Shown here piece after piece: positions 1,657 to 18,788 of a stretch of DNA of 64,000 bases. The notes beneath the pieces were generated by a model. The model worked only from the letters and a program-made list of their open reading frames with translations, searched no databases and was not told the origin of the DNA. Numbering within the stretch: the stretch's first letter is position 1; each line of letters begins with the position of its first letter. The translations under genes were made by a program, and so were the position numbers. The stretch is from Lachnospiraceae bacterium. Its GTDB lineage: Bacteria > Bacillota > Clostridia > Lachnospirales > Lachnospiraceae. The stretch spans positions 25,388-89,387 of the forward strand of contig JAILKJ010000016.1 of assembly GCA_024693845.1 (NCBI GenBank), given 5' to 3'.

Positions 1657-3966
1657 ATGATCCAATTATACGAGGAAGGCATTTATCTGGTAAAAGGAGA
1701 GAAGATCATACCCGACGGACCTTCGGCAGCGGAATTGCTGAAAGCCGAGACCGGTAAGGCGCCTTCAAAACAGGAAGCGGCAGAGGGGACCATCGCCTAC
1801 GGGATCTTAAAAAGCCATAATACCTCCGGCAACATGGAAAAGCTTAAGATCAAATTTGACAAGCTGACCAGCCACGACATTACCTTTGTGGGTATCATCC
1901 AGACCGCAAGGGCATCAGGTCTTGAGAAATTCCCCATCCCTTACGTGCTGACCAACTGCCATAACTCCCTTTGTGCGGTGGGCGGAACCATCAACGAAGA
2001 TGACCATATGTTTGGCCTTACCTGTGCCAAGAAATACGGCGGTGTTTATGTTCCGCCTCATCAGGCTGTCATTCATCAGTTTGCAAGGGAGATGCTTGCA
2101 GGCGGCGGCAGGATGATCCTGGGTTCCGATTCTCACACCCGCTACGGCGCACTGGGTACCATGGCCATGGGAGAAGGCGGACCGGAGCTGGTTAAGCAGC
2201 TGCTTTCCCAGACCTATGATATCAACATGCCCGGCGTTGTAGCCGTATATCTGGAAGGCGAGCCTGCCTTCGGCGTAGGCCCTCAGGATGTGGCTCTGGC
2301 CATCATCGGCGTCGTATTTGAGAAAGGCTATGTAAAAAATAAAGTCATGGAGTTCGTAGGCCCCGGCGTAGCAAGCCTGTCGGCTGATTTCAGGATCGGC
2401 ATTGACGTAATGACCACCGAGACCACCTGCCTGTCTTCCATCTGGGAGACCGATGAGAAGATCAAAGAGTTTTATGATATCCACGGCAGGAGCGCTGACT
2501 TCGGCAGCGAGCTTCATCCCGCAGACGTTACCTACTATGACGGCTGCATAAAGATCGATCTTTCCAAGATCAAACCCATGATCGCAATGCCCTTCCATCC
2601 CAGCAACACCTATACCATCGATGAGGTGAATGCCAATCTTACCGATATCCTTGCCGATGTGGAGAAAAGAGCCCTTGTCAGCTTAGACGGAGCCGTAGAG
2701 TACTCTCTCCGGGACAAGGTAAGAGACGGCGCTTTCTATGTGGATCAGGGCATCATTGCAGGTTGTGCCGGCGGCGGCTTCGAAAATATCTGTGCCGCAG
2801 CGGACATCCTGAAGGGAGAGTATATCGGCTCTGACGGCTTTACACTGAGTGTTTATCCGGCTTCCATGCCCGTCTATATGGAATTGATCCGCAACGGCTG
2901 CGCAGCTACGCTGATGGAGACAGGTGCGGTATTGAAGACCGCCTTCTGCGGTCCCTGCTTCGGAGCAGGCGATACTCCCGCAAACAATGCTTTCTCCATC
3001 CGTCATTCCACGAGAAACTTCCCCAACAGAGAAGGTTCCAAGCTTCAGAGCGGACAGATCGCATCGGTAGCCCTGATGGATGCAAGATCCATAGCGGCCA
3101 CCGCGGCCAACAAAGGAAAGCTTACTCCCGCAACCGCCTTTGGCGGAAGCTTCACCGGATATCAGTATCACTTTGACGAGAAGATCTATGCCAACCGTGT
3201 CTTTGATTCCAAGGGCGTTGCAGATCCGGATGTGGAGATCCAGTTTGGTCCCAACATCAAGGACTGGCCGAAGATGGTGGCATTGACGGATAATCTGGTC
3301 CTTCGTGTCGTATCCGAGATCCATGATCCCGTGACCACCACGGATGAGCTGATCCCCTCCGGGGAGACCTCTTCCTACAGGTCCAACCCTCTGGGACTTG
3401 CGGAGTTCACCCTTTCCCGTAAGGATCCTGCTTATGTGGGACGCGCCAAGGAGATCCAGAAGGTTGAGAAGGCAAGAGAAGCTTATCTGGCAGGAGAAAG
3501 CGATGAAAAGCCCTGTCAGGCGCTGGAAGGCTTCCATGATATCATGCAGACCATCAAGGCATCCTTCCCGGAGGTTTCTTCGAAGAACACCGGTATGGGA
3601 TCCACGATCTTTGCGGTGAAGCCCGGAGACGGTTCCGCCAGAGAGCAGGCGGCAAGCTGTCAGAAGGTACTGGGCGGCTGGGCCAACATCGCCAATGAAT
3701 ATGCAACCAAGAGATACCGTTCCAATCTGATCAACTGGGGTATGCTTCCTCTGCTGATCCCCGAAGGAGAGTTGCCTTTTGCTAACCTGGACTACATCTT
3801 CCTTCCGGGCATCCGTGAGGAGGTTGAGAAGAAGGCGGATAAGATCAAAGCCTTTGCAGTGAAAGGCAGTGAGCTCAAAGAGTTTGAGATGACACTGGGC
3901 GAGCTTACGGATGAAGAAAGACAGATCATCCTGAAGGGATGTCTGATCAATTATAACCGGGTATAA
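1657..3966 (+). CDS. Aconitase-family hydratase (YbhJ-like)
   Basis: A 769-aa member of the aconitase/homoaconitase superfamily, which carries a [4Fe-4S] cluster and adds or removes water on hydroxy-acids. The three cluster ligands are visible: Cys370 (in a GCAGGG motif) and Cys431 and Cys434 (CGPC). The active-site arginine motif [11 protein letters not shown] follows, then the C-terminal swivel domain (GGSFTGY at about residue 496). Overall shape fits the YbhJ-like hydratase branch better than AcnA, AcnB or LeuC, so the substrate is not known and citrate should not be assumed. It starts 20 bases after the GGDEF gene behind AAGGAG. It is followed 22 bases later by an unrelated zinc-ribbon gene, and no other TCA-cycle genes are nearby. 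Confidence 0.85.
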
Positions 3967-3988: not shown

Positions 3989-5284
3989 ATGGGAGATGTA
4001 TTGAGCTTCAAATGCCCCTGTTGTGTGGCACCGCTGGAGTTTAACGGGGATCAGGGACAGATGACCTGCGAGTACTGCGGATCCAGCTTTACGATGGAGC
4101 AGGTGAAGGCAGCGCAGCAGGCAGATGCACTGGAGGGAGATGCGTCCGAGATGACCTGGTCATCCTCCGAGCCGGAGATGATTCAGGATGCGGACGGCAA
4201 GGTCGAGGGATACCTTTGCCCTTCCTGCAGCGGCGAGATCATCGCAGACGAGAATACGGCTGCAACGGAATGTCCTTTCTGCGGCAACCAGACCATCATT
4301 CCCCAGTCCTTTGAAGGAATGTACAAGCCGGACGGCATCATTCCCTTTGCCATCGACAAGAGCCATGCCGAGGAGAAGCTGCGTGAATTCTATAAAGGCA
4401 AGAAGCTTCTGCCCAACAGCTTTACGGACAACAATCATATCAAGGCCATCAGCGGCGTATACGTACCCTTCTGGCTGGCTAGTGCTACCGCAAACGGTAC
4501 GGTGGTCTTCGACGGTGTGAAGAACAAGACCGAGAAAAAAGCCAACGAGACCGTTACGATCCAGGATCACTACAATGTGACCAGAGCCGGAAGTCTGGAC
4601 TTCAAACGGGTTCCCGCGGACGCATCCTCCAAGATGGACGATGCACTGATGGATTCCCTTGAGCCCTACGATATGGACAAGATCGTGGATTATGACGCGG
4701 CATATTTTTCCGGTTATATGGCTGACAAGTACGATGTTAAGGCGGAGGATATCAAGGATCGCGTGAACAAACGTATCCGCACCACCTTCATCAATGAGAT
4801 GCGTTCCACCGTTTCCGGCTATGACAGCGTGGTGAGCAAGAACGATTCGGTGAAGGTCAACGACGGAAAGACGGAATATGCTTTCCTGCCGGTATGGATG
4901 CTCAGCACCAAATACAACGACGAAGTGTACACCTTTGCCATGAACGGACAGACCGGTAAGATCTCCGGTTCGCTTCCCATCGATCAGGGAAAATATTGGA
5001 AAAATGTTGTCATCACCCTTGCCATCGTAGCGGCGGTCATCATGGCCCTGTTCTATTTCGGCGTGATCGGTGCTGGCGGTTTTGCTCTTAAGAGCCTTTG
5101 CATCTCCGTAGTGATCGGCGCTATCGTAGGTTTCATCCGGGGCGCTATCCTGAAGGGCTCCATGAGCAACGTACATGAACAGAGTGCAGCTGCCCGGTAT
5201 GCGGTGGAGAACTCACTTAAGATCAAGACCAAGACCGATACCTTCATGTACTCCAAGAGAGAAGTTAAACCCAACAATAATTAG
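3989..5284 (+). CDS. Zinc-ribbon membrane protein, YdjG-like (TFIIB-type)
   Basis: A 431-aa protein with two N-terminal zinc ribbons (CPCC...CEYCG at residues 9-34, CPSC...CPFCG at about 76-98), a mixed middle domain and a C-terminal membrane hairpin of two or three hydrophobic segments at about residues 335-390. The middle carries IIPF, YKGKKLLP and VYVPFWL, which recur almost word for word in the second copy at 37458-38546, so the two are paralogues. The architecture matches the clostridial 'TFIIB-type zinc ribbon' membrane proteins related to B. subtilis YdjG, which helps organise membrane stress proteins. The start ATG has AGGAGG eight bases upstream. It runs straight into the ATP synthase operon with a 40-base gap and no visible terminator, so some co-transcription is likely. 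Confidence 0.75.
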   Translation: MGDVLSFKCPCCVAPLEFNGDQGQMTCEYCGSSFTMEQVKAAQQADALEGDASEMTWSSSEPEMIQDADGKVEGYLCPSCSGEIIADENTAATECPFCGNQTIIPQSFEGMYKPDGIIPFAIDKSHAEEKLREFYKGKKLLPNSFTDNNHIKAISGVYVPFWLASATANGTVVFDGVKNKTEKKANETVTIQDHYNVTRAGSLDFKRVPADASSKMDDALMDSLEPYDMDKIVDYDAAYFSGYMADKYDVKAEDIKDRVNKRIRTTFINEMRSTVSGYDSVVSKNDSVKVNDGKTEYAFLPVWMLSTKYNDEVYTFAMNGQTGKISGSLPIDQGKYWKNVVITLAIVAAVIMALFYFGVIGAGGFALKSLCISVVIGAIVGFIRGAILKGSMSNVHEQSAAARYAVENSLKIKTKTDTFMYSKREVKPNNN

Positions 5285-5324
5285 CATTGCCTTACCATAA
5301 GCATTTCGGAAGGGAGATGGTATT

Positions 5325-6011
5325 TTGGAAGCAGTTGCGGAGCATATTCAGGAAGAGCTGAATGTGCAGACTGTCTTTACCATACCGATCGGCGGCGGCT
5401 TGCCCGTGGCGGAATCCGTGGTGGTCACCTGGATCATCATGGGAGTACTGATCCTGCTGGCATTTTTCCTGACCAGGGGATTTAAGACCAGAAATATCAG
5501 CAAAAGACAGGCAGCCGTGGAGGTTGTCGTGACCAAACTTACGGGTTTGGTGGGCGGTATGCTGGGAGAAGAGGGAGAAAGCTATACCACTTATCTGACA
5601 ACCGTCCTTTTGTATATCGGTATTGCAAACATCATCGGGATCTTCGGGTTCAAATCCCCAACCAAGGATCTGAACGTGACACTGGCTCTGGCGCTGATGA
5701 GTATCATCCTGGTGCAGATCGCCGGGATCCGGGCCAAGGGAGTCAAAGGATGGCTTAAAGCGTTTACACAGCCCATAGCTATTGTGACACCCTTCAATAT
5801 CCTGGATCTGGTGACCAGACCGCTCTCGCTCTGCATGCGACTGTTTGGTAACGTGCTGGGTGCTTTCGTGATCATGAAGCTCATCGAGCAGGTACTGCCT
5901 GTTTTCCTGCCGGCGGTATTTTCGGTGTACTTCGATCTGTTTGACGGTCTGCTGCAGGCATATGTGTTTGTCTTTCTGACCAGTCTCTACATCAAAGAGG
6001 CTGTGGAATAA
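5325..6011 (+). CDS. atpB: F1Fo ATP synthase subunit a
   Basis: The stator membrane subunit that forms the two half-channels for ions next to the c-ring. It has 228 aa and five to six hydrophobic helices. The essential arginine is Arg172 in the motif SLCMRLFGNVLG. The start is TTG at 5325, nine bases after GGAAGGGAG; an ATG at 5317 is out of frame. It is the first gene of the atp cluster. No atpI gene precedes it, and no clear own promoter is visible in the 40-base gap from the zinc-ribbon gene. Confidence 0.96.
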   Translation: MEAVAEHIQEELNVQTVFTIPIGGGLPVAESVVVTWIIMGVLILLAFFLTRGFKTRNISKRQAAVEVVVTKLTGLVGGMLGEEGESYTTYLTTVLLYIGIANIIGIFGFKSPTKDLNVTLALALMSIILVQIAGIRAKGVKGWLKAFTQPIAIVTPFNILDLVTRPLSLCMRLFGNVLGAFVIMKLIEQVLPVFLPAVFSVYFDLFDGLLQAYVFVFLTSLYIKEAVE

Positions 6012-6062: not shown

Positions 6063-6287
6063 ATGAACTCACTCATTGCAATTGGTGCAGGTATCGCAGT
6101 ATTCGGTGCTCTCGGTGCCGGTGTCGGAATCGGTATCGCTACGGGAAAGGCCGTTGAAGCGGTTGCCCGTCAGCCGGAAGCCGACAGCAAGATCATGAAG
6201 AACCTGATCCTGGGTTGTGCACTGGCAGAGGCTACCGCTATCTATTGTTTCGTTATTGCGATCATGATCATCATGTTCTTTAAATGA
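6063..6287 (+). CDS. atpE: F1Fo ATP synthase subunit c
   Basis: A 74-aa two-helix hairpin that builds the rotor ring. The conserved loop ARQPE is at residues 35-39 and the ion-binding carboxylate is Glu56, in ALAEATAIY. The sodium-type signature seen in Ilyobacter (Gln in helix 1, Glu-Ser in helix 2) is not complete: the Gln position is Ile23 and the residue after Glu56 is Ala57. That favours proton coupling, although the following Thr58 and Tyr61 match sodium rings. It starts behind GGAGG with a six-base spacer. Confidence 0.96.
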   Translation: MNSLIAIGAGIAVFGALGAGVGIGIATGKAVEAVARQPEADSKIMKNLILGCALAEATAIYCFVIAIMIIMFFK

Positions 6288-6309: not shown

Positions 6310-6798
6310 ATGTTAAGAATTGATATCAATCTGATCTTTACCGTTATCAATATCCTGGTCCTGGCCATTGCCATGAAGATCTTTCTGTTCAAACCCGTTA
6401 AGGATATCATCGACAAGAGACAGAAGGAAGCCGACGAGGAGTATGAGAAGGCGACGGTTGCCAAAAACAAGGCGGATGAGCTCAGACAGCAGTATGATGA
6501 CTCGCTTTTGAAGCTGGAGGAAGAGAAGAAGGAAACGCTGCGCACCGCCCGTAAAAACGCGGACTCGGAGTATCAGCGCATCATCGGCCTGGCGGAATCC
6601 AAAGCGGCCACGATCAAATCCGATGCCCAGATCCAGGCAGAGTCCACCCGTCAGCAGGTGCTCAAGCGTGCCGAGCGTGAGATCGCCGACATGGTCCTTA
6701 ACGCTACGGAGAAGATGACCGGCGAAGCGGTAGGCGGCAAAGAGATCAACAGCAGTCTGTATGATGAATTCTTGAGTAAGGCAGGTGAGGAGCAGTGA
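6310..6798 (+). CDS. atpF: F1Fo ATP synthase subunit b
   Basis: The peripheral-stalk subunit, 162 aa. One N-terminal membrane helix (residues 5-25, ending in the KIFLFKPV motif common in this subunit) is followed by a long charged coiled coil with many Lys, Glu and Ala. It overlaps the next gene by four bases (GTGA), which implies translational coupling with the delta-alpha fusion it must hold. Confidence 0.95.
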   Translation: MLRIDINLIFTVINILVLAIAMKIFLFKPVKDIIDKRQKEADEEYEKATVAKNKADELRQQYDDSLLKLEEEKKETLRTARKNADSEYQRIIGLAESKAATIKSDAQIQAESTRQQVLKRAEREIADMVLNATEKMTGEAVGGKEINSSLYDEFLSKAGEEQ

Positions 6799-8897
6799 CG
6801 GATAAGGTAAAATATTATGCCCAGATGCTGATCACCAACGGCATTCCCAAGTCTCTGATGCAGCAGACCACGGAGATCCTCGAGGCCGTACCCGAGATCC
6901 GGCTTGAGTTCGAGAACCCGGCGGTTTCCATCGAAAAGAAACATACGGTGATCGACAAGGTCTTTCCCAAGCCGGCCCGCAACTCCTTAAAGCTGCTCTG
7001 CGACAACGGAGATTTTTCTCTGTACGACGATGTGCTGGAGGCATATGATGAGCTGATGGAAAAGCCGTCCAAAACGGTGACAAAGGCTTATCTTACCTAT
7101 GTGGACAAGCCCTCCGACGAGCAGATCGAAAGGATCCGCTCCTTTGTGGAAAAGGAGACCAATTCCGAGAATATCGAGATCGTTCTGCGCAAGGATGATT
7201 CCCTGGGCAGCGGTTTTGTTCTCAAGATTGGGGCCAAGGAATACGACTGGAGTGAGAGCGGCAGACTGGACCAGCTCAAGGAAAACCTGATCCGTTCCGT
7301 TTTCCGGATCAGTAAACATAGCTTTTCCGAGGAGGGTATCATTTCGATCCTCCGCAGCAGCGTGGAAGATTTCGAGCTGCAGGCCCAGGATATGGAAGTG
7401 GGCCTTGTGACCTGGGTGGGAGACGGTATCGCCAACGTAGACGGTATCGACCACGCGGCATACGGCGAGATCGTCATTTTTGACTGCGGTATCAAGGGTA
7501 TGGTACAGGATGTCAGACGTGACGACATCGGCGTTATCCTGTTCGGACCCGATACAGAGCTGTACGAAGGCAGCAGAGTGGTACGAAGCGGACGTATGGG
7601 CGGTGTCCCCGTGGGAAAAGAGTTCCTGGGGCGTATCGTCAATGCTCTGGGTGATCCCATCGACGGACTGGGTGAGATCGACTCCGACGGATTCCGCAGA
7701 ATGGAGAATCCCGCACCCTCCATCGCAGATCGTAAATCAGTATCCGTTCCCATGGAAACGGGTATCCTTTCCATAGATTCCATGTTCCCCATCGGACGTG
7801 GTCAGAGAGAGTTGATCATCGGTGACAGGCAGACCGGTAAGACGTCCATCGCCATCGATACGATCTTAAACCAGAAGGGCAAGGATGTGGTATGTATTTA
7901 TGTGGCCATCGGCCAGAAGGCTTCCACCATTGCCCAGCTGGTCAATACCCTGAAGCAGCATGATGCCCTTTCCTATACCACTGTGTATTGTGCTACGGCG
8001 TCGGATCCGGCTCCCATGCAGTACGTGGTACCCTACAGTGCAACGGCGCTGGCAGAGTACTTCATGCTCCGCGGCCGGGACGTACTGATCGTTTATGATG
8101 ATCTTTCCAAGCATGCGGTGGCTTACAGGGCCATCTCCCTTTTACTGGAGCGTCCTCCGGGACGTGAGGCATATCCGGGAGATGTATTCTATCTGCATTC
8201 GAGACTCCTGGAGCGTTCGGCCAGGCTTTCACCGGCAGCGGGCGGTGGTTCCATCACGGCGTTGCCCATCATTGAGACCCAGGCCGGAGATGTATCCGCA
8301 TACATCCCCACCAACGTGATCTCCATCACGGACGGGCAGATCTATCTGGAAAGCGAACTGTTCAATGCGGGACAACGTCCTGCCGTGAACGTAGGTCTTT
8401 CCGTATCCCGTGTAGGTGGTGCCGCACAGTGGCCGGCTATGAAAAAAGCAGCCGGTTCGGTACGTATCGATCTGGCGCAGTATCGGGAGATGGAGGTCTT
8501 CACCCAGTTTTCTTCCGATCTGGACGAGAGCACCAAGAAGCAGCTGGCACACGGACGTGCCCTGATGGAGCTTTTGAAGCAGCCCATCGGAAAGCCTCTT
8601 TCCATGCCCCAGCAGGTGATCCTTCTGGTGTCCGCAGGGATCGGGGTCTTCGATAAGATCCCCGTGGAAAACATCTCCGTTTTCAGGGAGGAGCTGCTGG
8701 AATACTTTGCGGAGAATCACTCCGATATCATAAACGAACTGGAAAACCAGGGTGTTTTAAACGACGATCTTCGGGCAGCCATTGAAGAGGGAGCAACTAC
8801 CCTTGCCGAAGACATCAGCGCTGAGGATGTGCCTCCCGCTGAAGAGGTCTCGACGACCCTTCCCGAGACGGAGGCCGTATTTGTAAAGAACAACTAA
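6795..8897 (+). CDS. atpHA: Fused F1 ATP synthase subunits delta and alpha
   Basis: One 700-aa reading frame joins subunit delta (about residues 1-178) to a complete subunit alpha (about 180-700). The delta part begins VKYYAQMLITNGIPKSLM and ends in the usual EYDWSESGRLDQLKENL region. The alpha part starts at SEEGIISILRSSV, where a free alpha would carry its MxLRPEEI start, and continues VGDGIA, Walker A GDRQTGKT (343-350), PYSATALAEYF, the DDLSKHAVAYR loop and the arginine finger Arg539 in SVSRVGG. No stop or ATG lies at the junction. Delta normally sits on top of the alpha-beta hexamer bound to alpha N-termini, so a tether of one delta to each of three alphas would need explaining. It starts GTG with a four-base overlap to atpF. 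The C-terminal tail (about 665-700) is acidic and unusual. Confidence 0.92.
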   Translation: MTDKVKYYAQMLITNGIPKSLMQQTTEILEAVPEIRLEFENPAVSIEKKHTVIDKVFPKPARNSLKLLCDNGDFSLYDDVLEAYDELMEKPSKTVTKAYLTYVDKPSDEQIERIRSFVEKETNSENIEIVLRKDDSLGSGFVLKIGAKEYDWSESGRLDQLKENLIRSVFRISKHSFSEEGIISILRSSVEDFELQAQDMEVGLVTWVGDGIANVDGIDHAAYGEIVIFDCGIKGMVQDVRRDDIGVILFGPDTELYEGSRVVRSGRMGGVPVGKEFLGRIVNALGDPIDGLGEIDSDGFRRMENPAPSIADRKSVSVPMETGILSIDSMFPIGRGQRELIIGDRQTGKTSIAIDTILNQKGKDVVCIYVAIGQKASTIAQLVNTLKQHDALSYTTVYCATASDPAPMQYVVPYSATALAEYFMLRGRDVLIVYDDLSKHAVAYRAISLLLERPPGREAYPGDVFYLHSRLLERSARLSPAAGGGSITALPIIETQAGDVSAYIPTNVISITDGQIYLESELFNAGQRPAVNVGLSVSRVGGAAQWPAMKKAAGSVRIDLAQYREMEVFTQFSSDLDESTKKQLAHGRALMELLKQPIGKPLSMPQQVILLVSAGIGVFDKIPVENISVFREELLEYFAENHSDIINELENQGVLNDDLRAAIEEGATTLAEDISAEDVPPAEEVSTTLPETEAVFVKNN

Positions 8898-8918
8898 ACC
8901 TGATACGGGATAACGACA

Positions 8919-9893
8919 TTGGCTAATGCGAAAGAGATTCAAAACCGCATAAAGAGTATTCAGGATACCATGAAGATCACCAAGGCCATGTACCTGATGA
9001 GCTCCATGAAGCTTCGAAAAGCCAGACAGAAGCTATCGGATACGGAGCCCTATTTCTTCGCCCTGGAAGAGGAGATCACGGATATCCTGCTGCATTTTCC
9101 CGCACTGGAGGATGTGTTCTTCGATAACCGGAGTGAGGATAAGCGGGAGACCGTTAAGCATCGTGCCTACATCGTCATGACGGCCGATAAGGGAATGGCA
9201 GGGGCCTATAACCACAACGTGCTCAAACGGACCCAGCAGCTGCTTAACACGCTGAAGCAGCAGTACGGCGATGACAAGGAGAGAGAGAACAGACTCTTTG
9301 TTGTCGGAGAGCTGGGGCGGGCATTTTTCCGGGGACAGGGTTACCCCATAGAGCCGGATTTCTTCTTCTCTGCCAACAATCCCACTATGCACAGGGCAAG
9401 GCAGATCACGGGACGGATCATGGATCTGTATGTGGGAGAGGAACTGGACGAGGTCTTTTTGATCTACACGAGAATGGTCAACTCCATGAAGGAGACCGTA
9501 GAGGTAGAAAGACTTCTCCCCCTGAAGACAAGTGAGTTCGTCCGTAAGGAGATCCAGGATAAGATCGATCAGGGCCTTCTGAATCCGGAGGTCATCGACG
9601 AGAAGGACGACTGGTATCTGTTCTATCCCACTCCCCGGGCCATCCTGGAGAAGCTGGTGCTCAACTACCTGACGGGCTTTATCTACGGTGCCATGGTAGA
9701 GGCTCATGCCAGTGAGGAAAACGCCCGGATGATGGCGATGCAGTCAGCAACGGATAACGCACAGCTCATGCTCAATGAGCTGTCGGTGGAATACAACAGG
9801 GTCAGACAGGCGGCGATCACCCAGGAGATCACGGAGGTCATCAGCGGTGCCAAGGCCCTGAAGAAAAAGAAAGAAGCTATGAAGAAAGGATAG
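8919..9893 (+). CDS. atpG: F1 ATP synthase subunit gamma
   Basis: The central rotor shaft. At 324 aa it is some 35-40 residues longer than the common 285. The N-terminal helix ANAKEIQNRIKSIQDTMKIT and the C-terminal helix (about residues 265-310) form the coiled coil that turns inside the alpha-beta hexamer. The extra length appears in the middle Rossmann-like domain (about 60-230). The start is TTG at 8919, giving the standard N-terminus after Met removal. The upstream ribosome binding site is poor. Confidence 0.93.
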   Translation: MANAKEIQNRIKSIQDTMKITKAMYLMSSMKLRKARQKLSDTEPYFFALEEEITDILLHFPALEDVFFDNRSEDKRETVKHRAYIVMTADKGMAGAYNHNVLKRTQQLLNTLKQQYGDDKERENRLFVVGELGRAFFRGQGYPIEPDFFFSANNPTMHRARQITGRIMDLYVGEELDEVFLIYTRMVNSMKETVEVERLLPLKTSEFVRKEIQDKIDQGLLNPEVIDEKDDWYLFYPTPRAILEKLVLNYLTGFIYGAMVEAHASEENARMMAMQSATDNAQLMLNELSVEYNRVRQAAITQEITEVISGAKALKKKKEAMKKG

Positions 9894-11291
<1,398 letters not shown>

Positions 11292-11295
11292 GGAT

Positions 11296-11712
11296 ATGAA
11301 AACATTCAGGCTGAGAGTCCTGGCCTGTGACAGGGTATTTTACGACGGAGAGTGTCGTATGCTGATCTTTCCTTCCTTCGACGGAGAGATGGCTGTCATG
11401 GCGGGACATGAAAGAATGAGTACGGCCATAGAAGTGGGGGAGATCCGCTTTCAGGATGAAAAGGGAGAGTGGCAGTCCGCCATAGTTTCCGACGGTCTTT
11501 TGAAGGTTGAAAAGACCAAGGTAAGCCTTTTGGTCTATTCAGCGGAACGTCCCGACGAGATCGATGCCTTCCGGGCGGAGGCGGCGATGGAGCGGGCAAA
11601 GGAGCAGCTTTCCCAGCAGCAGAGCATTGTGGAATATCATATTTCGAGAGCCAACCTGGCAAGGGCCATGGCAAGGCTCCGCGGCGCAGGCAAACACATG
11701 CCTGATGCCTGA
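11296..11712 (+). CDS. atpC: F1 ATP synthase subunit epsilon
   Basis: A 138-aa subunit at the foot of the central stalk. It has an N-terminal beta-sandwich (FRLRVLACDRVFYDGEC, SFDGEMAVMAGH) and a C-terminal two-helix hairpin rich in Ala, Arg and Glu. This helical part can inhibit ATP hydrolysis in many bacteria. It is last in the atp set and is followed only 14 bases later by the first antiporter gene, with no terminator between. Confidence 0.95.
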   Translation: MKTFRLRVLACDRVFYDGECRMLIFPSFDGEMAVMAGHERMSTAIEVGEIRFQDEKGEWQSAIVSDGLLKVEKTKVSLLVYSAERPDEIDAFRAEAAMERAKEQLSQQQSIVEYHISRANLARAMARLRGAGKHMPDA

Positions 11713-11726
11713 CAGAGGCGATTTAC

Positions 11727-12179
11727 ATGTATTTGGGTATCATACTGTTGTGGATCATATTGAACGGCCGGATCACGGGAGAGATCCTGATCTTCGGGAT
11801 CATGATCAGTGTGGCAGTCTCGCTGTTCTCCATAAAGGTCATGGGTTATTCTATGAAAAGTGACGAGAGGTTCCTTCGGAATCTGCCGCTTTTCATAGGA
11901 TATATTTTTGTGCTGATCTGGGAGATCATAAAGGCAGCACTGGCGGTGGCATTTTTATCCCTGGGAAGGACAAAGCCGGATCCCCAGATCATGGAGTTTC
12001 ACTCGGGACTTACAAGCGATCTGCAGAACGTGATGCTGGCCAATTCCATCACCCTGACGCCGGGGACCATCACCGTGTTCCAGGAGGGTGACCGTTTTGT
12101 GGTACACTGCCTTCGAAAGGAATACGGCGAAGGCCTTGAGGACTGCATTTTTGTAAGGATGCTCAGGAAGTTTAAGTAG
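11727..12179 (+). CDS. mrpE: Mrp-type cation/H+ antiporter subunit E
   Basis: A 150-aa MnhE/MrpE protein with two or three N-terminal membrane segments and a soluble end. Family landmarks are the LIWEIIKAALAVAFLSL helix and the ANSITLTPGTITV motif at about residues 94-106. Subunit E sits at the edge of the Mrp complex. It opens the antiporter module directly after atpC. Confidence 0.92.
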   Translation: MYLGIILLWIILNGRITGEILIFGIMISVAVSLFSIKVMGYSMKSDERFLRNLPLFIGYIFVLIWEIIKAALAVAFLSLGRTKPDPQIMEFHSGLTSDLQNVMLANSITLTPGTITVFQEGDRFVVHCLRKEYGEGLEDCIFVRMLRKFK

Positions 12180-12203
12180 AACATAAGGAAAGGAAACTGC
12201 GAA

Positions 12204-12563
12204 ATGTCAGTTGAAGCAGCTTACCATTATCTTTATATGACGGTGCTGATCCTGTTTGCGCTGCTTGCCACGGTCATGATGATCCGTGCCATCATCGGAC
12301 CGCGGATCACGGACAGGGTGTTGTCGGTGAACATGATAGGTACCATTGTGATCAGCTGTATCGCCGTGCTTTCGGTGATGCTGAAGGAAAGCTATCTGGT
12401 GGACGTGGCGCTGATCTATGCCATGATCAGCTTTATATCCGTGCTGATCCTGATCTCGGTCTATCTGCCCAACAGACAGCTTCGTGACAGCAGTCTGAAG
12501 GAGCAGACCGGTAAGCAGTCGGGCCGCGGATCCGGCAAAAGAAAGCGGGGGAAGAGCAAATGA
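12204..12563 (+). CDS. mrpF: Mrp-type cation/H+ antiporter subunit F
   Basis: 119 aa with three membrane helices, including the conserved IIGPRITDRVLSVNMIGT loop at residues 29-46 and LVDVALIYAMISF. A short basic tail follows, rich in Arg and Lys. It overlaps the next gene by four bases. Confidence 0.92.
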   Translation: MSVEAAYHYLYMTVLILFALLATVMMIRAIIGPRITDRVLSVNMIGTIVISCIAVLSVMLKESYLVDVALIYAMISFISVLILISVYLPNRQLRDSSLKEQTGKQSGRGSGKRKRGKSK

Positions 12564-12889
12564 CGGCAGAATGGATCAGATTTATCATTACGGCTGTCCT
12601 GATGGCAGTGGGGCTCTTCTTTTTTGCAACGGCCGTTCTGGGTGCCAACCGTTTCGGCTTTGTGATGAACAGAATGCATGCTGCCGGCATCGGTGATACT
12701 GCGGGATTGTTTTTCGTGATCCTCGCGCTCTTTGTGGCATCGGGGGTTCATGCGGACACTCTCAAGCTTTCGCTGATCGTGTTCTTCATGTGGTTCACTT
12801 CTCCCGTATCGTCTCATTTTCTGAGTCAGATCGAGTATTATACGAACCCGGAGTTATATCGTTTTATGAAAAGAAAGGAAGAGCCTTAA
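12560..12889 (+). CDS. mrpG: Mrp-type cation/H+ antiporter subunit G
   Basis: 109 aa with three helices and the PhaG/MnhG hallmark ANRFGFVMNRMHAAGIGDTAG at residues 28-48. It is joined to the next gene by a one-base TAATG overlap, so the order E-F-G is tightly coupled. Confidence 0.92.
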   Translation: MTAEWIRFIITAVLMAVGLFFFATAVLGANRFGFVMNRMHAAGIGDTAGLFFVILALFVASGVHADTLKLSLIVFFMWFTSPVSSHFLSQIEYYTNPELYRFMKRKEEP

Positions 12890-13179
12890 TGGGAACAACT
12901 GAGATCTTCAGGATCGTGCTTCTGGTGCTGCTGATCGCCTGCGCCGTGGCGGTGAACCTGACGAAAAACCTGATGCAGGCCGTGATCATCTTCATGTCCT
13001 ACAGCTCCATCATGTGCATCCTCTGGATCCTGATGCAGTCACCCGATCTGGCCATCACGGAGGCGGCTGTGGGTGCCGGTATCAGCGGGACCCTGTTTTT
13101 GATGACGCTGAAAAAAATAGAAGCCGAGGATGCCGGCGAGAAAAAGAGGAAAAAGAAAAGGGCGGGAAAACGATCATGA
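12889..13179 (+). CDS. MbhD-like subunit (DUF4040), detached part of MrpA
   Basis: A 96-aa protein with three helices carrying QAVIIFMSYSSIMCILWILMQ and PDLAITEAAVGAGISG, the DUF4040/MbhD signature. In canonical Mrp antiporters this stretch is part of the C-terminal region of MrpA; in membrane-bound hydrogenases it is the free subunit MbhD. The true start is the ATG at 12889 that overlaps the mrpG stop; an in-frame ATG at 12790 lies inside mrpG. The last 20 residues are highly basic (Lys/Arg). Its stop overlaps the next start (ATGA). Confidence 0.85.
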   Translation: MGTTEIFRIVLLVLLIACAVAVNLTKNLMQAVIIFMSYSSIMCILWILMQSPDLAITEAAVGAGISGTLFLMTLKKIEAEDAGEKKRKKKRAGKRS

Positions 13180-13973
13180 AAAAGGCCTTTCACAGATTTT
13201 ACAACCTGATCGCCGTGATCTGCTGTCTTTTGCTCATCGGCGTGCTGCTCTATGCGGTATCCATGCTCCCCCACTACGGGCAGGAGAATCCCCGCAGTGT
13301 AGAAGTGGTGGAGCGGTATGTTCATGACGGTCTTGAGGAGACCGGCGCCACCAATATTGTGGCGGGCATGATCCTGGATTACCGTGCCTTTGATACTCTG
13401 GGAGAATCCCATGTCCTCTTCACGGCTCTGATCTGCGTGATCATCCTGCTGGGGAAGGACGTCAAGAACATGCGTCGGGAATATGACGGATACTACACCG
13501 TGGAATATGAAAGCTATCATAAGCTGGCGGATGATAAGATCCTGCGGCTTGTGGGTTATATCCTGCTGCCCTGTCTGTTTCTGTTCGGGATCTATATCCT
13601 GTTGAACGGACAGCTGTCTCCCGGAGGAGGTTTCTCCGGCGGGGCCATCATGGGTGCGGCTCTGATCATTTTTGCCGCGGCCTTCGGATTTGAAACCGTG
13701 GATAAGGTCTTTACGGAAAAAGTGCTGAAGGGCGTGACTTTTGTTTCCCTGGCCTTCTACAGCTTTGCCAAGGGCTATGTATTTTTCACCGGAGCCAACG
13801 GCCTGGAAAACCACGTACCGAAGGGAGAGCCGGGGATGATCCTGTCAGGCGGGCTGATCCTGCCGCTGGATATTGCGGTGGGTATGGTGGTAGCCTGCAC
13901 GATGTACGGTTTCTACAGTTTGTTCAGAAGAGGGAGTATCGGACATGATCACACATTTATGGATCAACAATGA
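13176..13973 (+). CDS. mrpB: Fused MbhE-like and MrpB subunit
   Basis: A 265-aa protein. Residues 1-95 match the MbhE part of MrpA (EETGATNIVAGMILDYRAFDTLGE); residues about 110-255 are a full MrpB/MnhB with LNGQLSPGGGFSGGAIMGAA. So the end of MrpA has been cut from its large domain, and its second half joined to MrpB. The start is ATG 13176 in an ATGA overlap; upstream in-frame codons belong to the preceding gene. It overlaps mrpC by 29 bases. Confidence 0.88.
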   Translation: MKKAFHRFYNLIAVICCLLLIGVLLYAVSMLPHYGQENPRSVEVVERYVHDGLEETGATNIVAGMILDYRAFDTLGESHVLFTALICVIILLGKDVKNMRREYDGYYTVEYESYHKLADDKILRLVGYILLPCLFLFGIYILLNGQLSPGGGFSGGAIMGAALIIFAAAFGFETVDKVFTEKVLKGVTFVSLAFYSFAKGYVFFTGANGLENHVPKGEPGMILSGGLILPLDIAVGMVVACTMYGFYSLFRRGSIGHDHTFMDQQ

Positions 13974-14325
13974 AGAAGCGGTAGCCATCATCCTGTTCGG
14001 CATCGGTTTTACCATGCTGCTTTTTCAGAAGAATCTGCTCAAGAAGCTGATCGGCATGAACATCATGGATACGGGAACCTTTCTGTTCCTGGCTTCCATG
14101 GGATATATCGAGGGCCGCAGACCGCCCATCGTGGAAAACGGTGTGCTGGAAAGATCGGCCTATATCAACCCCGTGCCTGCGGGGCTGGTGCTGACCGGTA
14201 TCGTGGTATCGGTGTCGGTGACGGCCATCATGCTTTCCCTTACGGTGCGGCTCTATAAACGGTACCACACCCTGGACATCGACGAGATGTACGAAAGATC
14301 AAAACACGCGGCGGAGGACAGATAA
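13945..14325 (+). CDS. mrpC: Mrp-type antiporter subunit C (NuoK-like)
   Basis: 126 aa, three helices, homologous to NuoK of complex I. Landmarks are the LIGMNIMDTGTFLFLAS helix and the PVPAGLVLTGIVVSVSVTAI helix at residues 74-93. The loop between helices 2 and 3 (PPIVENG) is typical of MrpC/MbhG. Confidence 0.92.
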   Translation: MITHLWINNEEAVAIILFGIGFTMLLFQKNLLKKLIGMNIMDTGTFLFLASMGYIEGRRPPIVENGVLERSAYINPVPAGLVLTGIVVSVSVTAIMLSLTVRLYKRYHTLDIDEMYERSKHAAEDR

Positions 14326-14326
14326 A

Positions 14327-15823
14327 TTGGAATTCATTACGAATTTTCCGCTATTTACCATAGTGCTGAGCCTCTTTTCCGGAGTGCTCTGTTATATGCT
14401 CAAGCCCAGAGTGGCCAAGATCTATACCTTGGTCTATGAAGGATTCCTGATCCTTCTTGTCAGTGCTGTTCTGTATTATGTGCTGGCTACGGGACAGGCC
14501 TTTACCTACGTGATGGGTGAGTTTCCCGCACCCTGGGGAAATGAGATCCGGGCAGGTGTGCTGGAGGCCATGATCGCCCTCTGCTTTCTGATCGTAATGA
14601 TCTGCTCGGTCAGTGCAGGCTTCCGTTTTTTGAAAACGGATATGGACGAAAGTAAGCTGAACCTGTATTTCACCCTGGTGAACCTGATGACGGCGGCTCT
14701 CATGTCTCTGGTGTGGACCAACGATCTTTTCACGGGATACGTTTTTCTGGAGATCCTGACGCTGACCAGCTGCGGCGTTCTGATCGTACGGGAGATCGGA
14801 AGGACCTCCCTGGCGGCAGTGCGCTACATGATCCTGAACCTTCTGGGTTCCGGACTCTTTTTGCTGGGCGTTGTGCTGTTGTATGATCTGACGGGGCATC
14901 TTCTGATGGTGCCCATGAAGGAGACCATCGCCGAGCTGGCCACGGATCCTGCCGTCCTGCCGGTGATCGGTGTCGCGGTGGGGATCCTTACCATCGGTCT
15001 TTCCATCAAGAGCGGTCTGTTTCCCTTCCATTTCTGGATGCCGGATACCTACGGCTGGGCCACGCCAACTTCGGCGGCACTTTTGTCCTCCCTGGTTTCC
15101 AAGGCATATATCTTCCTGCTGTTTAAGACCTACTACAGAGCCATCGGCATTGATGTCCTGCAGCAACTTCCCATCCGTCATGTACTGCTGGTGCTGGGGG
15201 CCATGGGTATCGTGGTGGGCTCGCTACAGGCGATCCATACCAACAACTTAAACCACATGGTGGCCTATTCCTCGGCAGCCCAGATCGGATATATCTACAT
15301 GGGTATCGGACTGGGCGGTGTTGCAGGATACACGGCAGCCATGTTCCATGTTATGGCCCATGCCATCACCAAATCCCAGCTGTTTCTGACTACACCCCGC
15401 CTGGCTGAGGTAGCGGGGGGGAACCTGAAATTCCAGGATCTGCAGGGAAGCGCGTTAAAGACCAGAGTCGCCGGTTTTTATTTTACCATCGGTGCCTTTT
15501 CCATGATCGGTATTCCCATTTTTGCCGGCTTTTCCTCCAAGCTCCAGTTTGCCTTAGCGGCTGTGACAGGAGCCGGGATCAAAAGGATCCTGATCGTTAT
15601 GTTGGCCCTGGCTGTCAGCTCCATGCTGAACGCCCTGTATTTTGTCATGACCCTGATCCGGATCTATACACCGGACGGAGATAATAACAGAAGTGTGATG
15701 ACCCATCATCACATCAATTACCATCTGCCCATGCTGCTGTTAACGGCGGCTAACCTTTTGCTGGGCCTTCGCTGTGATCTGATCGTGGATCTGATCGGAA
15801 AAGGCCTTGCCATGTTCGGGTAG
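14327..15823 (+). CDS. Antiporter-type subunit 1 (MrpD/NuoN-like)
   Basis: The first of four large proton-translocating-type subunits, 498 aa and about 14 helices. The TM5 glutamate lies in GYVFLEILTLTSCG. The TM7 lysine lies in SIKSGLFPFHFWMPDTYG, and the TM8 lysine in LLSSLVSKAYIFLL. The start is TTG 14327, 10 bases after GGAGG. It belongs to the MrpD/MbhH/NuoN superfamily; I cannot say from sequence alone which slot it fills in the complex. Confidence 0.88.
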   Translation: MEFITNFPLFTIVLSLFSGVLCYMLKPRVAKIYTLVYEGFLILLVSAVLYYVLATGQAFTYVMGEFPAPWGNEIRAGVLEAMIALCFLIVMICSVSAGFRFLKTDMDESKLNLYFTLVNLMTAALMSLVWTNDLFTGYVFLEILTLTSCGVLIVREIGRTSLAAVRYMILNLLGSGLFLLGVVLLYDLTGHLLMVPMKETIAELATDPAVLPVIGVAVGILTIGLSIKSGLFPFHFWMPDTYGWATPTSAALLSSLVSKAYIFLLFKTYYRAIGIDVLQQLPIRHVLLVLGAMGIVVGSLQAIHTNNLNHMVAYSSAAQIGYIYMGIGLGGVAGYTAAMFHVMAHAITKSQLFLTTPRLAEVAGGNLKFQDLQGSALKTRVAGFYFTIGAFSMIGIPIFAGFSSKLQFALAAVTGAGIKRILIVMLALAVSSMLNALYFVMTLIRIYTPDGDNNRSVMTHHHINYHLPMLLLTAANLLLGLRCDLIVDLIGKGLAMFG

Positions 15824-15838
15824 GAGGAGGAAAGAAAG

Positions 15839-17296
15839 ATGCTCCAAGTGTTCGCCATCCTTTTTCCGGCCATATGCGGGATCGCCATCAGTGTGTTTTT
15901 AAATGACGACCGTCTGACGGATGAAGGGATCAAAGCGGAAAGAATGAAAATAAGAAACCGCCTCTACACGGCGGTGATCCTCATATGTGATCTTCTGGGT
16001 ATCCTGCTGGTCTGCACTCCGCAAAAGACCGTTTCCTGGGATATCGTAGGGGGCGCAGGGATCCTTTTATCCCCGGACAGCTTCGGGAAGCTCTGCCTTT
16101 GTGTGGTGCTGATCCTGTATACGGCAGTCTGCTTTTACAGCTTCGAATACATGAAAAAAGAAGAGCGCCACGAATATTTCTTCGCCTTCTTCTTCGTTTC
16201 CCTGGGAGCATTGCAGGCAGTCTGTCTGTCCGGCAGTCTGGTCTGTTTGTATGCTTTCTTCGAGCTGGCCACCTTATCTTCCATGCCTCTGGTGCTGCAT
16301 GAGATGACCAGGGAATCCGTTGCCGCCGGTAAAAAATACTTGTTTTACTCCATCGGCGGTGCCCTGATGGGTCTTTGCGCTGTGCTCTTTGTGTGCAGCC
16401 TGACGGAGGGCGGAGCCGGCTTTGTTGAAGGGGGCTTTATGACAAGTGCCATGATAAGCGGCCGGGAGAGCATGTTCCTGGCGGCTGCTTTTCTCGGGAT
16501 CCTGGGCTTCGGTACGAAGGCCGGTATCTATCCCATGCACGGATGGCTCCCTACGGCGCATCCCATTGCGCCCGCGCCCGCTTCGGCCCTGATGAGCGGT
16601 ATCATCGCCAAGGCCGGTGTCATCGCTCTGGTAAGGCTGGTTTATTACAGCATCGGTCCCTCCCTTCTTCGGGGAACCTGGGTGCAGAGAGGCTGGATGC
16701 TGCTTTCCATGATCACGATCCTGGTGGGATCTTCCATGGCCTTTTTGGAAAAAGAACTGAAAAAACGACTGGCCTATTCTACGGTCAGCCAGATCTCCTA
16801 TATCCTGCTGGGTCTGTCCCTTTTGTCCGAAGAAGGACTTCGGGGAGGCCTGCTGCAGCTGATGTCCCATGCGGCATCCAAGGGGTGTCTCTTCCTCTGT
16901 GCCGGGGCCATGATCTACCTGACCGGAAAGCGTCAGGTTAAGGATCTGCGGGGCATCGGAAAAGAGCTCCCCGTGACCCTATGGTGCTTCACACTGGCGT
17001 CCCTGTCCCTGGTGGGTATCCCGCCCATGGGCGGTTTTATCGCCAAGTGGACCCTGTCCGGAGCGGCACTTTCCGAAGAGATGGGCGTCTGGTCCGTTGC
17101 ACCCGTAGTCGTACTTCTGATCTCCGCCATGCTGACGGCAGGTTATCTGCTGCCCATAGTGATCGACGGATTTTTCCCGGGCAGGGAGTTTGCCGCGCAG
17201 CCGAGGCGTAAGGAACCCCTGTATCTTACCATCCCCATGCTCTTTCTTTCCGGGGCGGCACTGCTTGTGGGGATCCTGGGAGGGTATATACCATGA
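15839..17296 (+). CDS. Antiporter-type subunit 2 (MrpD-like)
   Basis: 485 aa with about 14 helices. The TM5 glutamate is in YAFFELATLSSMP, the TM7 lysine in FGTKAGIYPMHGWLP and the TM8 lysine in MSGIIAKAGVIAL. The full set of charged residues suggests an active ion path. It overlaps the next gene by four bases (ATGA). Confidence 0.88.
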   Translation: MLQVFAILFPAICGIAISVFLNDDRLTDEGIKAERMKIRNRLYTAVILICDLLGILLVCTPQKTVSWDIVGGAGILLSPDSFGKLCLCVVLILYTAVCFYSFEYMKKEERHEYFFAFFFVSLGALQAVCLSGSLVCLYAFFELATLSSMPLVLHEMTRESVAAGKKYLFYSIGGALMGLCAVLFVCSLTEGGAGFVEGGFMTSAMISGRESMFLAAAFLGILGFGTKAGIYPMHGWLPTAHPIAPAPASALMSGIIAKAGVIALVRLVYYSIGPSLLRGTWVQRGWMLLSMITILVGSSMAFLEKELKKRLAYSTVSQISYILLGLSLLSEEGLRGGLLQLMSHAASKGCLFLCAGAMIYLTGKRQVKDLRGIGKELPVTLWCFTLASLSLVGIPPMGGFIAKWTLSGAALSEEMGVWSVAPVVVLLISAMLTAGYLLPIVIDGFFPGREFAAQPRRKEPLYLTIPMLFLSGAALLVGILGGYIP

Positions 17297-18759
17297 GTCC
17301 ACTGTTTTTGCTTTTGCCCATCTTAATACCCGTGATCGGCGGCTTTTTGCTGATCCCCCTGAAGCCGAAGACCAGCCGCGTCAGAAACATCTACAGCGAG
17401 TGTGTTGTGGTGCTGACCAGCATCCTGGTATGGGTGGCGATCTTTACCCTCGATCGGGAATCCGTGGAGCTGTACAGCTTTACGAGAGGCTTTTCCATCG
17501 ACTTCATGCTGGACGGCGCCGGTATGCTCTTTGCCGGTATGGTGTCCCTTATGTGGCCGCTGGTAATGCTCTATGCCTTTGATTACATGGAAAACACAGG
17601 CAGGAAAAATGTCTTCTTTGCCTTTTACATCATGACCTACGGTATCACCCTGGGTATCGCATTTGCCTCCAACATGACGACGATGTATACCTTCTTTGAG
17701 ATGCTGACTCTGGTCACCATTCCGCTGGTCAGCTATTATGAGAGCCGGGAGTCACGCTATGCGGGAAGAAAATACGCGGCCTTTTGTATCGGCGGCGCAT
17801 CCCTGGGCTTCTTTGCCGTCATTATGACAACCCTGTACGGAAAGGGAGGCAACTTCATCCTGGGGGGTTCCCTGATCGAGGGATTCGATCCCGTGCTGAT
17901 GCAGCTGGCCTTTCTGTTCGGCTTCTTCGGCTTTGGCGTAAAGGCGGCCGTTGTGCCATTGCATGACTGGCTTCCCACGGCCTCCGTGGCTCCTACCCCC
18001 GTAACAGCCCTGCTGCACGCCGTGGCAGTGGTCAATTCCGGTGTCTTTGCCATCGTACGTCTGACCTATTATACCTTCGGAACGGAGTTTCTGGATCATT
18101 CACCCGCCGGGGATCTGGCACTTTACGTCAGCATTTTTTCCCTGCTGTTTTCCGCCTGGATGGCGCTGGGAGAAGGACACTTTAAGCGTCGACTGGCCTA
18201 TTCCACCGTCAGTAACCTGTCCTATATGCTCATGGGTCTGATGCTGATGAGCAGCGCGGGTCTGGAAGCCGGACTTTTGCACATGTTGTTCCACGGCATC
18301 ATCAAGATGTCCCTTTTCCTCTGCGCCGGCGCTTTCATGCATGTGACGGGGAAGGAATATGTGAAGGATACGGTGGGCGTCGGTAGAAAAATGCCCGTCA
18401 CCTTTGCTTTTTATACCATGGGAGGCATCTCCCTTACCGGTGTGCCGCTGTTCTGCGGCTTTGTGTCGAAATGGAAGCTTCTCTCCGCAGCTTTTGAGAG
18501 GGGAGATATCGGCGGCTATGCCGGGATCCTTGCGCTTCTCATATCGGCGCTGCTTTGTGCGATCTACACGCTGGGTATCAGCATGCGGGCCTTTTTTGCT
18601 CCCAAGGGAGAGGATCTCTATGAAAGATCTGACATTAAAGAAGCCCATGCACTGATGCAGATCCCCATTATCGTATTCGGGATCATCAATGTGGTCCTGG
18701 GAATCTATCCCGCACCGATCCTTAAGTTTGTTGAAAAGATCGTCGTGGGACTGATCTGA
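17293..18759 (+). CDS. Antiporter-type subunit 3 (MrpD/MbhH-like, altered TM8)
   Basis: 488 aa. TM5 glutamate in YTFFEMLTLVTIP and TM7 lysine in FGVKAAVVPLHDWLP are kept. In TM8, where copies 1, 2 and 4 have lysine, this copy has LLHAVAVVNSGVFAIVR: a histidine near the start, as in NuoL/MrpA, and Asn in place of Lys. This makes it the most distinct of the four and a candidate for the MrpA/NuoL-like position or for a changed ion specificity. Confidence 0.87.
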   Translation: MSPLFLLLPILIPVIGGFLLIPLKPKTSRVRNIYSECVVVLTSILVWVAIFTLDRESVELYSFTRGFSIDFMLDGAGMLFAGMVSLMWPLVMLYAFDYMENTGRKNVFFAFYIMTYGITLGIAFASNMTTMYTFFEMLTLVTIPLVSYYESRESRYAGRKYAAFCIGGASLGFFAVIMTTLYGKGGNFILGGSLIEGFDPVLMQLAFLFGFFGFGVKAAVVPLHDWLPTASVAPTPVTALLHAVAVVNSGVFAIVRLTYYTFGTEFLDHSPAGDLALYVSIFSLLFSAWMALGEGHFKRRLAYSTVSNLSYMLMGLMLMSSAGLEAGLLHMLFHGIIKMSLFLCAGAFMHVTGKEYVKDTVGVGRKMPVTFAFYTMGGISLTGVPLFCGFVSKWKLLSAAFERGDIGGYAGILALLISALLCAIYTLGISMRAFFAPKGEDLYERSDIKEAHALMQIPIIVFGIINVVLGIYPAPILKFVEKIVVGLI

Positions 18760-18788
18760 AGGGAAAGCTGACAGAAAGCAGGTTTAAA

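Follow-up and report, generated by a model that had tools for sequence, protein, structure and literature searches.

The delta and alpha subunits of an F-type ATP synthase are encoded as a single protein in the Lachnospiraceae bacterium studied here, and this delta-alpha fusion is real and conserved. It lies at positions 6795..8897 (+) of a 64,000-nucleotide stretch of assembly GCA_024693845.1 (contig JAILKJ010000016.1, positions 25,388 to 89,387 of the forward strand), hereafter the window. In the standard description, an F-type ATP synthase has a single delta, peripheral stalk and a-subunit, and its H+/ATP ratio follows from the size of the c-ring (PMC12229609); at the level of gene design, the fusion departs from the one-delta rule. 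To judge from gene comparisons, the fused protein probably works uncut as all three alphas. With delta-alpha in all three alpha positions, the delta C-terminal domain would, like alpha, be present three times, giving three docking sites per F1 head, each of which could in principle hold a b2 dimer together with its a-subunit. More a-subunits per c-ring would in turn mean more protons moved per ATP; these last two steps have been shown by others in an engineered enzyme of Bacillus PS3 with the same layout. To the explanation as a whole, i.e., an uncut fusion in every alpha position and a head that could carry more than one peripheral stalk, we give an even chance. The possibility of more than one stalk goes beyond the preliminary description, which had proposed three delta domains per enzyme, cleavage after synthesis or a second alpha start; the first of these is now best supported, and the last does not hold as a general mechanism. 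The view that a delta-alpha fusion is not known is outdated, as Ueno et al. 2025 built one and named natural cases (PMC12229609). The design was therefore already known from engineering and from a few natural cases without the N-domain, and what is new here is that the fusion also occurs in full length and how widely it is spread, together with the repeated loss of a delta domain and a triple fusion of b, delta and alpha.

As first claimed, one stop-free frame of 700 codons joins delta to alpha. It begins with a GTG that shares bases with the stop codon of b (6310-6798) and encodes 700 aa, an assignment resting on the open reading frame, Pfam, NCBIfam and alignment. The OSCP/delta family PF00213 matches residues 22-165 (74.3 bits against a curated cut-off of 22.3; profile positions 26-172), the families ATP-synt_ab_N, ATP-synt_ab and ATP-synt_ab_C cover residues 201-667 above their curated cut-offs, and the atpA model TIGR00962 covers residues 179-669 (733.7 bits, cut-off 484.45). 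The delta part, which had been called full, does contain both domains; its extreme N-terminus has diverged, the OSCP profile being entered only at position 26, yet the AlphaFold model of the fusion (mean pLDDT 71) has six N-domain helices. This N-terminal domain (aa 1-93; 6795..7073, +), absent in many relatives, is modelled in ten-residue blocks of mostly pLDDT 72-83. It is followed by the delta C-terminal domain (aa 96-168; 7080..7298, +), recognised by alignment with the signature EYDWS..GR and by profile matches to the PS3 and E. coli delta in the PDB; in known enzymes this is the b-binding domain. The usual alpha start had been thought to be replaced by a linker, which is correct for the start codon and the first residues only: a linker of about ten residues (aa 169-178; 7299..7328, +) is present, free of alignment gaps in six rows (the window and five congeners), while the alpha N-terminal helix (aa 179-197; 7329..7385, +) is retained according to the alignment and the model, partly at low confidence. 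Model confidence is low at residues 169-190, i.e., across the delta-alpha junction, and again in an acidic C-terminal tail (aa 678-700; 8826..8894, +). The alpha core between these regions (7386..8825, +; Pfam, NCBIfam) carries the Walker A sequence GDRQTGKT and the motif SVSRVGG.

How widespread the fusion is among Lachnospiraceae, a question raised at the outset, was addressed by a search with a delta-C/alpha-N profile in 397 genomes of the family, taken to be Lachnospiraceae on the strength of named relatives. Counted by hand, at least 75 of them carry a fusion, leaving at most 322 without a visible one. By open-frame length, 28 of these fusions are full and 41 consist of the delta C-domain and alpha only; the remainder comprises three of 636-647 aa (C-domain-only when read), one triple fusion and two cut by contig ends. 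The N-domain is thus gone in about 45 of the at least 75 family fusions. Long and short forms were both found among 116 near relatives. At the level of the order, 33 of 295 genomes are fused (E 1e-15 or better), including 11 outside the family, all C-domain-only (six of these were read); across the phylum, a fusion is carried by 12 of 398 genomes (E 1e-12 or better), and none of the 8 outside the family was seen as full, one (G860) being cut. From 123 relatives found, 80 named loci were kept: 63 full-length, 16 C-domain-only and one unclear. Cultured carriers include Lachnospiraceae bacterium MA2020, with a C-domain-only fusion, besides Pseudobutyrivibrio ruminis DSM 9787 and Butyrivibrio fibrisolvens 16/4, whose fusions are full. 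At loci L085 and L131 (Eubacterium uniforme), the full fusion reaches 756 aa, exceeding many others by about 80 residues. The same H+-type also includes unfused sister operons in which delta and alpha are separate genes (L059, L060, L062-L070 and L073); the end of delta and the beginning of alpha overlap in L059, stop on start. Two further loci are irregular: L056 appears to be a palindromic assembly with two broken operon copies, and L054 holds a decayed F-ATPase operon, the third in its genome.

Phylogenies indicate that the N-domain was lost repeatedly and independently among the fusions. An alpha+beta tree built from 43 operons needs six changes to account for the C-domain-only state, five of them forced by well-supported branches, and a single clade of C-domain-only forms is rejected (p 2e-6); a broader tree of 67 operons requires nine changes, the rows of the trees being a chosen selection of operons. 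For example, the C-domain-only L035 groups with the full fusion L042 (support 100/99, alpha+beta tree), and L033 groups with L040 (81/47 in the 43-operon alpha+beta tree; SH-aLRT 95 in the alpha-only tree and 99 in the 67-operon tree). Change counts alone have no direction; it is because the N-domain is homologous to that of standard delta that the changes are read as losses. No such loss was found in the 12 unfused sister operons read, whose deltas measure 169-182 aa. In the 67-operon tree, the standard lineage contains five C-domain-only fusions that come from outside the family but within the phylum and, therefore, the fusion arose at least twice; a single origin of all fusions is rejected in that tree (p 3.8e-6). 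Within the order, the alpha-only tree unites 16 of the 20 fusions in a single clade (SH-aLRT 98), a grouping that the alpha+beta tree does not recover. Monophyly of all 20 has p 0.019, and that of the 18 left when L034 and L036 are removed has p 0.031. Fusion followed by re-splitting fits this pattern as well as repeated fusion does.

The main competitor of a head with several stalks is a head with three tethered deltas and one stalk, in which one N-domain sits on the threefold axis, one b2-a unit is mounted and two deltas are idle, so that the fusion would mainly strengthen the delta-alpha joint and save dosage control. This reading, which we consider a serious possibility at somewhat less than an even chance, draws on the behaviour of the N-domain in full fusions. 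Relaxation of this domain was expected, but none appears in the ratios of domain distance to alpha distance (simple Kimura-type distances, partly saturated; 51 rows, thinned from 76 full fusions without L043 and L049, and seven rows thinned from eight standard enzymes). The N-domain ratio is 4.37 in full fusions, as against 4.94 for the 12 sisters without a fusion and 6.55 for standard enzymes, so the domain is as constrained as in unfused enzymes and, therefore, probably still functional; the distances speak against it being a mere passenger. The C-domain ratio is 3.16 in full fusions, compared with 4.79 in unfused sisters and 4.72 in standard enzymes, so the C-domain is under more constraint once fused. 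Retention of an unrelaxed N-domain weighs against extra stalks in the enzyme of the window; just one N-domain copy can occupy the threefold axis. The operon also has just one gene each for a and b, and the N-domain is held by Ueno et al. to restrict stalk number, limiting the stalks to one (PMC12229609). However, its repeated absence among the fusions removes the very feature that would enforce a single stalk.

A second argument against a single stalk comes from genome G118, in which b, the delta C-domain and alpha form one 778-aa frame (L084:6156-8492). This triple fusion is the genome's only b above cut-off, its only OSCP match and its only F-type alpha, and a 781-aa protein, P0238, which represents a cluster of 34, is 97% identical to it over residues 1-260 and confirms it at the sequence level. 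The candidate internal start before its C-domain, TTG169, is not conserved, being Gln in P0238. If the G118 protein remains uncut, its use in all three alpha positions would supply each enzyme with three b chains anchored in the membrane, whereas a single stalk has two. Other joined forms occur in the distant operon L055, where b is joined to the delta C-domain (4605-5288) and alpha is separate; gamma and beta there share a stop-free 766-aa frame (6817-9117) with a strong internal beta start, given which an obligate gamma-beta fusion is probably not present.

The feasibility of several stalks has been demonstrated with the engineered PS3 delta-C-domain-alpha fusion (deltaDeltaN-alpha; PDB 9jc1), which mounts as many as three stalks, every one with its own a-subunit (PMC12229609). 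Its a content is raised 2.2-fold and its b content 1.8-fold, its H+/ATP ratio of 5.8 is about doubled, and its equilibrium pmf is 68 vs 133 mV; by cryo-EM, 0, 1, 2 and 3 stalks were seen in 15, 51, 26 and 8% of particles (PMC12229609). By analogy, the fused design would likely allow additional stalks on the motor and a larger number of protons exchanged per ATP. More than one stalk is reasonably probable in the relatives without the N-domain, and for the window's own enzyme it falls just short of an even chance. We tentatively regard the latter enzyme as a still complete stage, whose retained N-domain may set the number of stalks that are mounted.

The preferred reading, an uncut fusion as all three alphas, also competes with mixed or processed heads, in which only one of the three alphas is fused and the others come from an internal start, proteolysis or the second operon. 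This alternative is improbable. It finds some footing in the window's own genome, whose second, standard operon encodes its own delta (183 aa) and alpha (501 aa), the latter 57% identical to the fused alpha, so that mixing is possible there; the low-confidence linker could also be cut. Mixing with a standard alpha as a general rule is nonetheless rejected by 23 genomes. Among 74 fusion-bearing genomes tested for alpha (12 + 62), 29 have a single alpha; of the 25 such genomes from the set of 62, the 20 that were at least 90% complete were taken to the OSCP test, where G218 was excluded for a separate delta at a contig end. In 23 of the 74 (7 full, 16 C-domain-only), the fused gene is the sole F-type alpha above cut-off and the sole OSCP match; in G118 and G068 this match extends into N-domain profile positions, but over upstream b sequence. 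Proteolysis faces a further difficulty, in that cleavage of N-domain-less fusions would free a delta fragment without its usual F1-binding domain.

Internal starts were sought in 20 and then in 115 of 121 fused genes, the six that could not be placed by motif being dropped. No in-frame ATG, GTG or TTG lies between delta and the alpha barrel in 36 of the 115, and an in-frame junction start with strong predicted SD pairing occurs in 14; these fusions are not fully independent, as some loci represent the same genome twice (e.g., L102 and L051). The 14 strongly paired starts favour mixed heads to that extent, whereas a conserved internal alpha start is ruled out by the 36 startless genes, and these two counts together make a separate alpha from a general internal start unlikely. 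The window's junction candidates (GTG190, ATG200, GTG202 and GTG205) would truncate or remove the alpha N-helix.

That an assembly or sequencing error erased a stop between two genes, a suspicion nourished by the 85 contigs of the window's genome, can be dismissed, as the same frame is preserved in five congener genomes (G001-G005), in genera g193 (7/7 matching genomes full by frame length) and g247 (9/9 C-domain-only), in strains that their record titles give as isolates (P. ruminis DSM 9787 and also B. fibrisolvens 16/4 among them), and in the best 120 of the 231 proteins found, two of the 120 being the window's own. An error at the junction, which had been named as grounds for abandoning the fusion, is accordingly excluded by independent genomes and isolates. 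A sixth congener, G006 (80% complete), showed a standard delta only.

The operon of the window reads a-c-b-(delta-alpha)-gamma-beta-epsilon and contains no separate delta gene; the same order without a separate delta was found in 19 other fusion operons read (two cut by contig ends). Besides the fusion, it encodes, all on the + strand, Fo subunits a (228 aa; 5325..6011; PF00119, 142.8 bits, with NF004486 above cut-off), c (74 aa; 6063..6287; PF00137) and b (162 aa; 6310..6798; PF00430), gamma (324 aa; 8919..9893; PF00231), beta (464 aa; 9897..11291; TIGR01039, 805.2 bits) and epsilon (138 aa; 11296..11712; PF02823 and PF00401). The gamma extends about 40 residues beyond the family profile, and four congeners with a readable gamma also have a long one (324-354 aa). 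Upstream of the operon lie a large gene (1657-3966), presumably an aconitase-family hydratase, and a gene for a weakly zinc-ribbon-like protein (3989-5284), relatives of both being likewise upstream in congeners L047, L050 and L051. Directly 3' of the ATP synthase, a multi-subunit Mrp-type antiporter cluster (11727-20747; MnhE, F, G, B-like, C and four D/NuoL-like proteins) was called from open reading frames and, for some of its proteins, family matches. Its first genes also follow the operon in congeners L047 and L049, not in L051; a conserved link with the antiporter was dropped, being confined to part of the window's genus.

By its motif, the c-subunit of the window is H+-type: it has no Na+-ligand-like Q, and its Glu is followed by Ala (AEATAIY). 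The Q motif is taken to provide Na+ ligands. In an alignment for the window's genome, it is missing from the c beside the fusion and present in that of the standard operon, and the same division is seen more widely (0/16 full fusions, 0/23 C-domain-only fusions and 0/11 unfused sisters, vs. 9/9 standard family operons tested). Judged by this motif, the window's fusion operon does not qualify as a Na+-type F-ATPase. A review reports that P. ruminis has a Na+ ATP synthase as well as an H+ ATP synthase (PMC11187502). In P. ruminis DSM 9787 (L130), a full fusion stands beside an H+-type c; thus, the H+ enzyme of this species is probably the fused ATP synthase, a match that rests on DSM 9787, perhaps another strain than that of the original study.

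The bacterium of the window is related to rumen and gut fermenters, and the design is common to many of its relatives. With dozens of natural forms at hand, some of them in isolates, it may be asked whether multi-stalk enzymes serve ATP synthesis at low pmf or, alternatively, the export of more protons per ATP. Full fusions, C-domain-only fusions and unfused sisters constitute a natural experiment on the purpose of the delta N-domain.

Among known systems, N-ATPases (the alternate F1F0 type, TIGR03324) occur beside a standard F-type ATPase. The window's genome resembles them in having a second F-type ATPase beside the standard one; however, its alpha scores 603.1 against TIGR03324, below the cut-off of 750.5. 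The b-delta fusion of mycobacteria is present as a single copy. Like the window's protein, it makes delta within another stator subunit (PDB 7jg5 chain d), but delta is joined to b rather than alpha and the profile match is marginal (E 0.16); the actinobacterial b-delta architecture is absent from the window, where b is a separate gene. Closer is the natural deltaDeltaN-alpha of Acidaminococcus fermentans, named together with two UniProt entries (PMC12229609). It is likewise a gene fusion of the delta C-domain and alpha, although, unlike the window's protein, it has no N-domain. The five C-domain-only fusions from outside the family, which by their tree position are of separate origin, may or may not include Acidaminococcus. 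A full-length delta-alpha fusion is reported neither in the sections consulted of Ueno et al. (PMC12229609) nor in the titles and abstract openings of the literature searched. The closest counterpart is 9jc1, whose chains rank 1, 2 and 10 in a Foldseek search with the window's model and whose delta part is matched by the window's delta profile. The window's protein differs from it in retaining the delta N-domain (Pfam, AlphaFold) and in its other Fo, and 9jc1 is an engineered enzyme with measured properties. In both, the C-terminal end of delta is joined via a short linker to the alpha N-terminus. The engineered enzyme has no separate delta; in the window none lies in the fusion operon, but the second operon of the same genome encodes one. 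The natural C-domain-only fusion of L038 is colinear with the engineered protein over nearly the whole chain, aligning end to end (6-579 to 8-575 of 580 in 9jc1_I).
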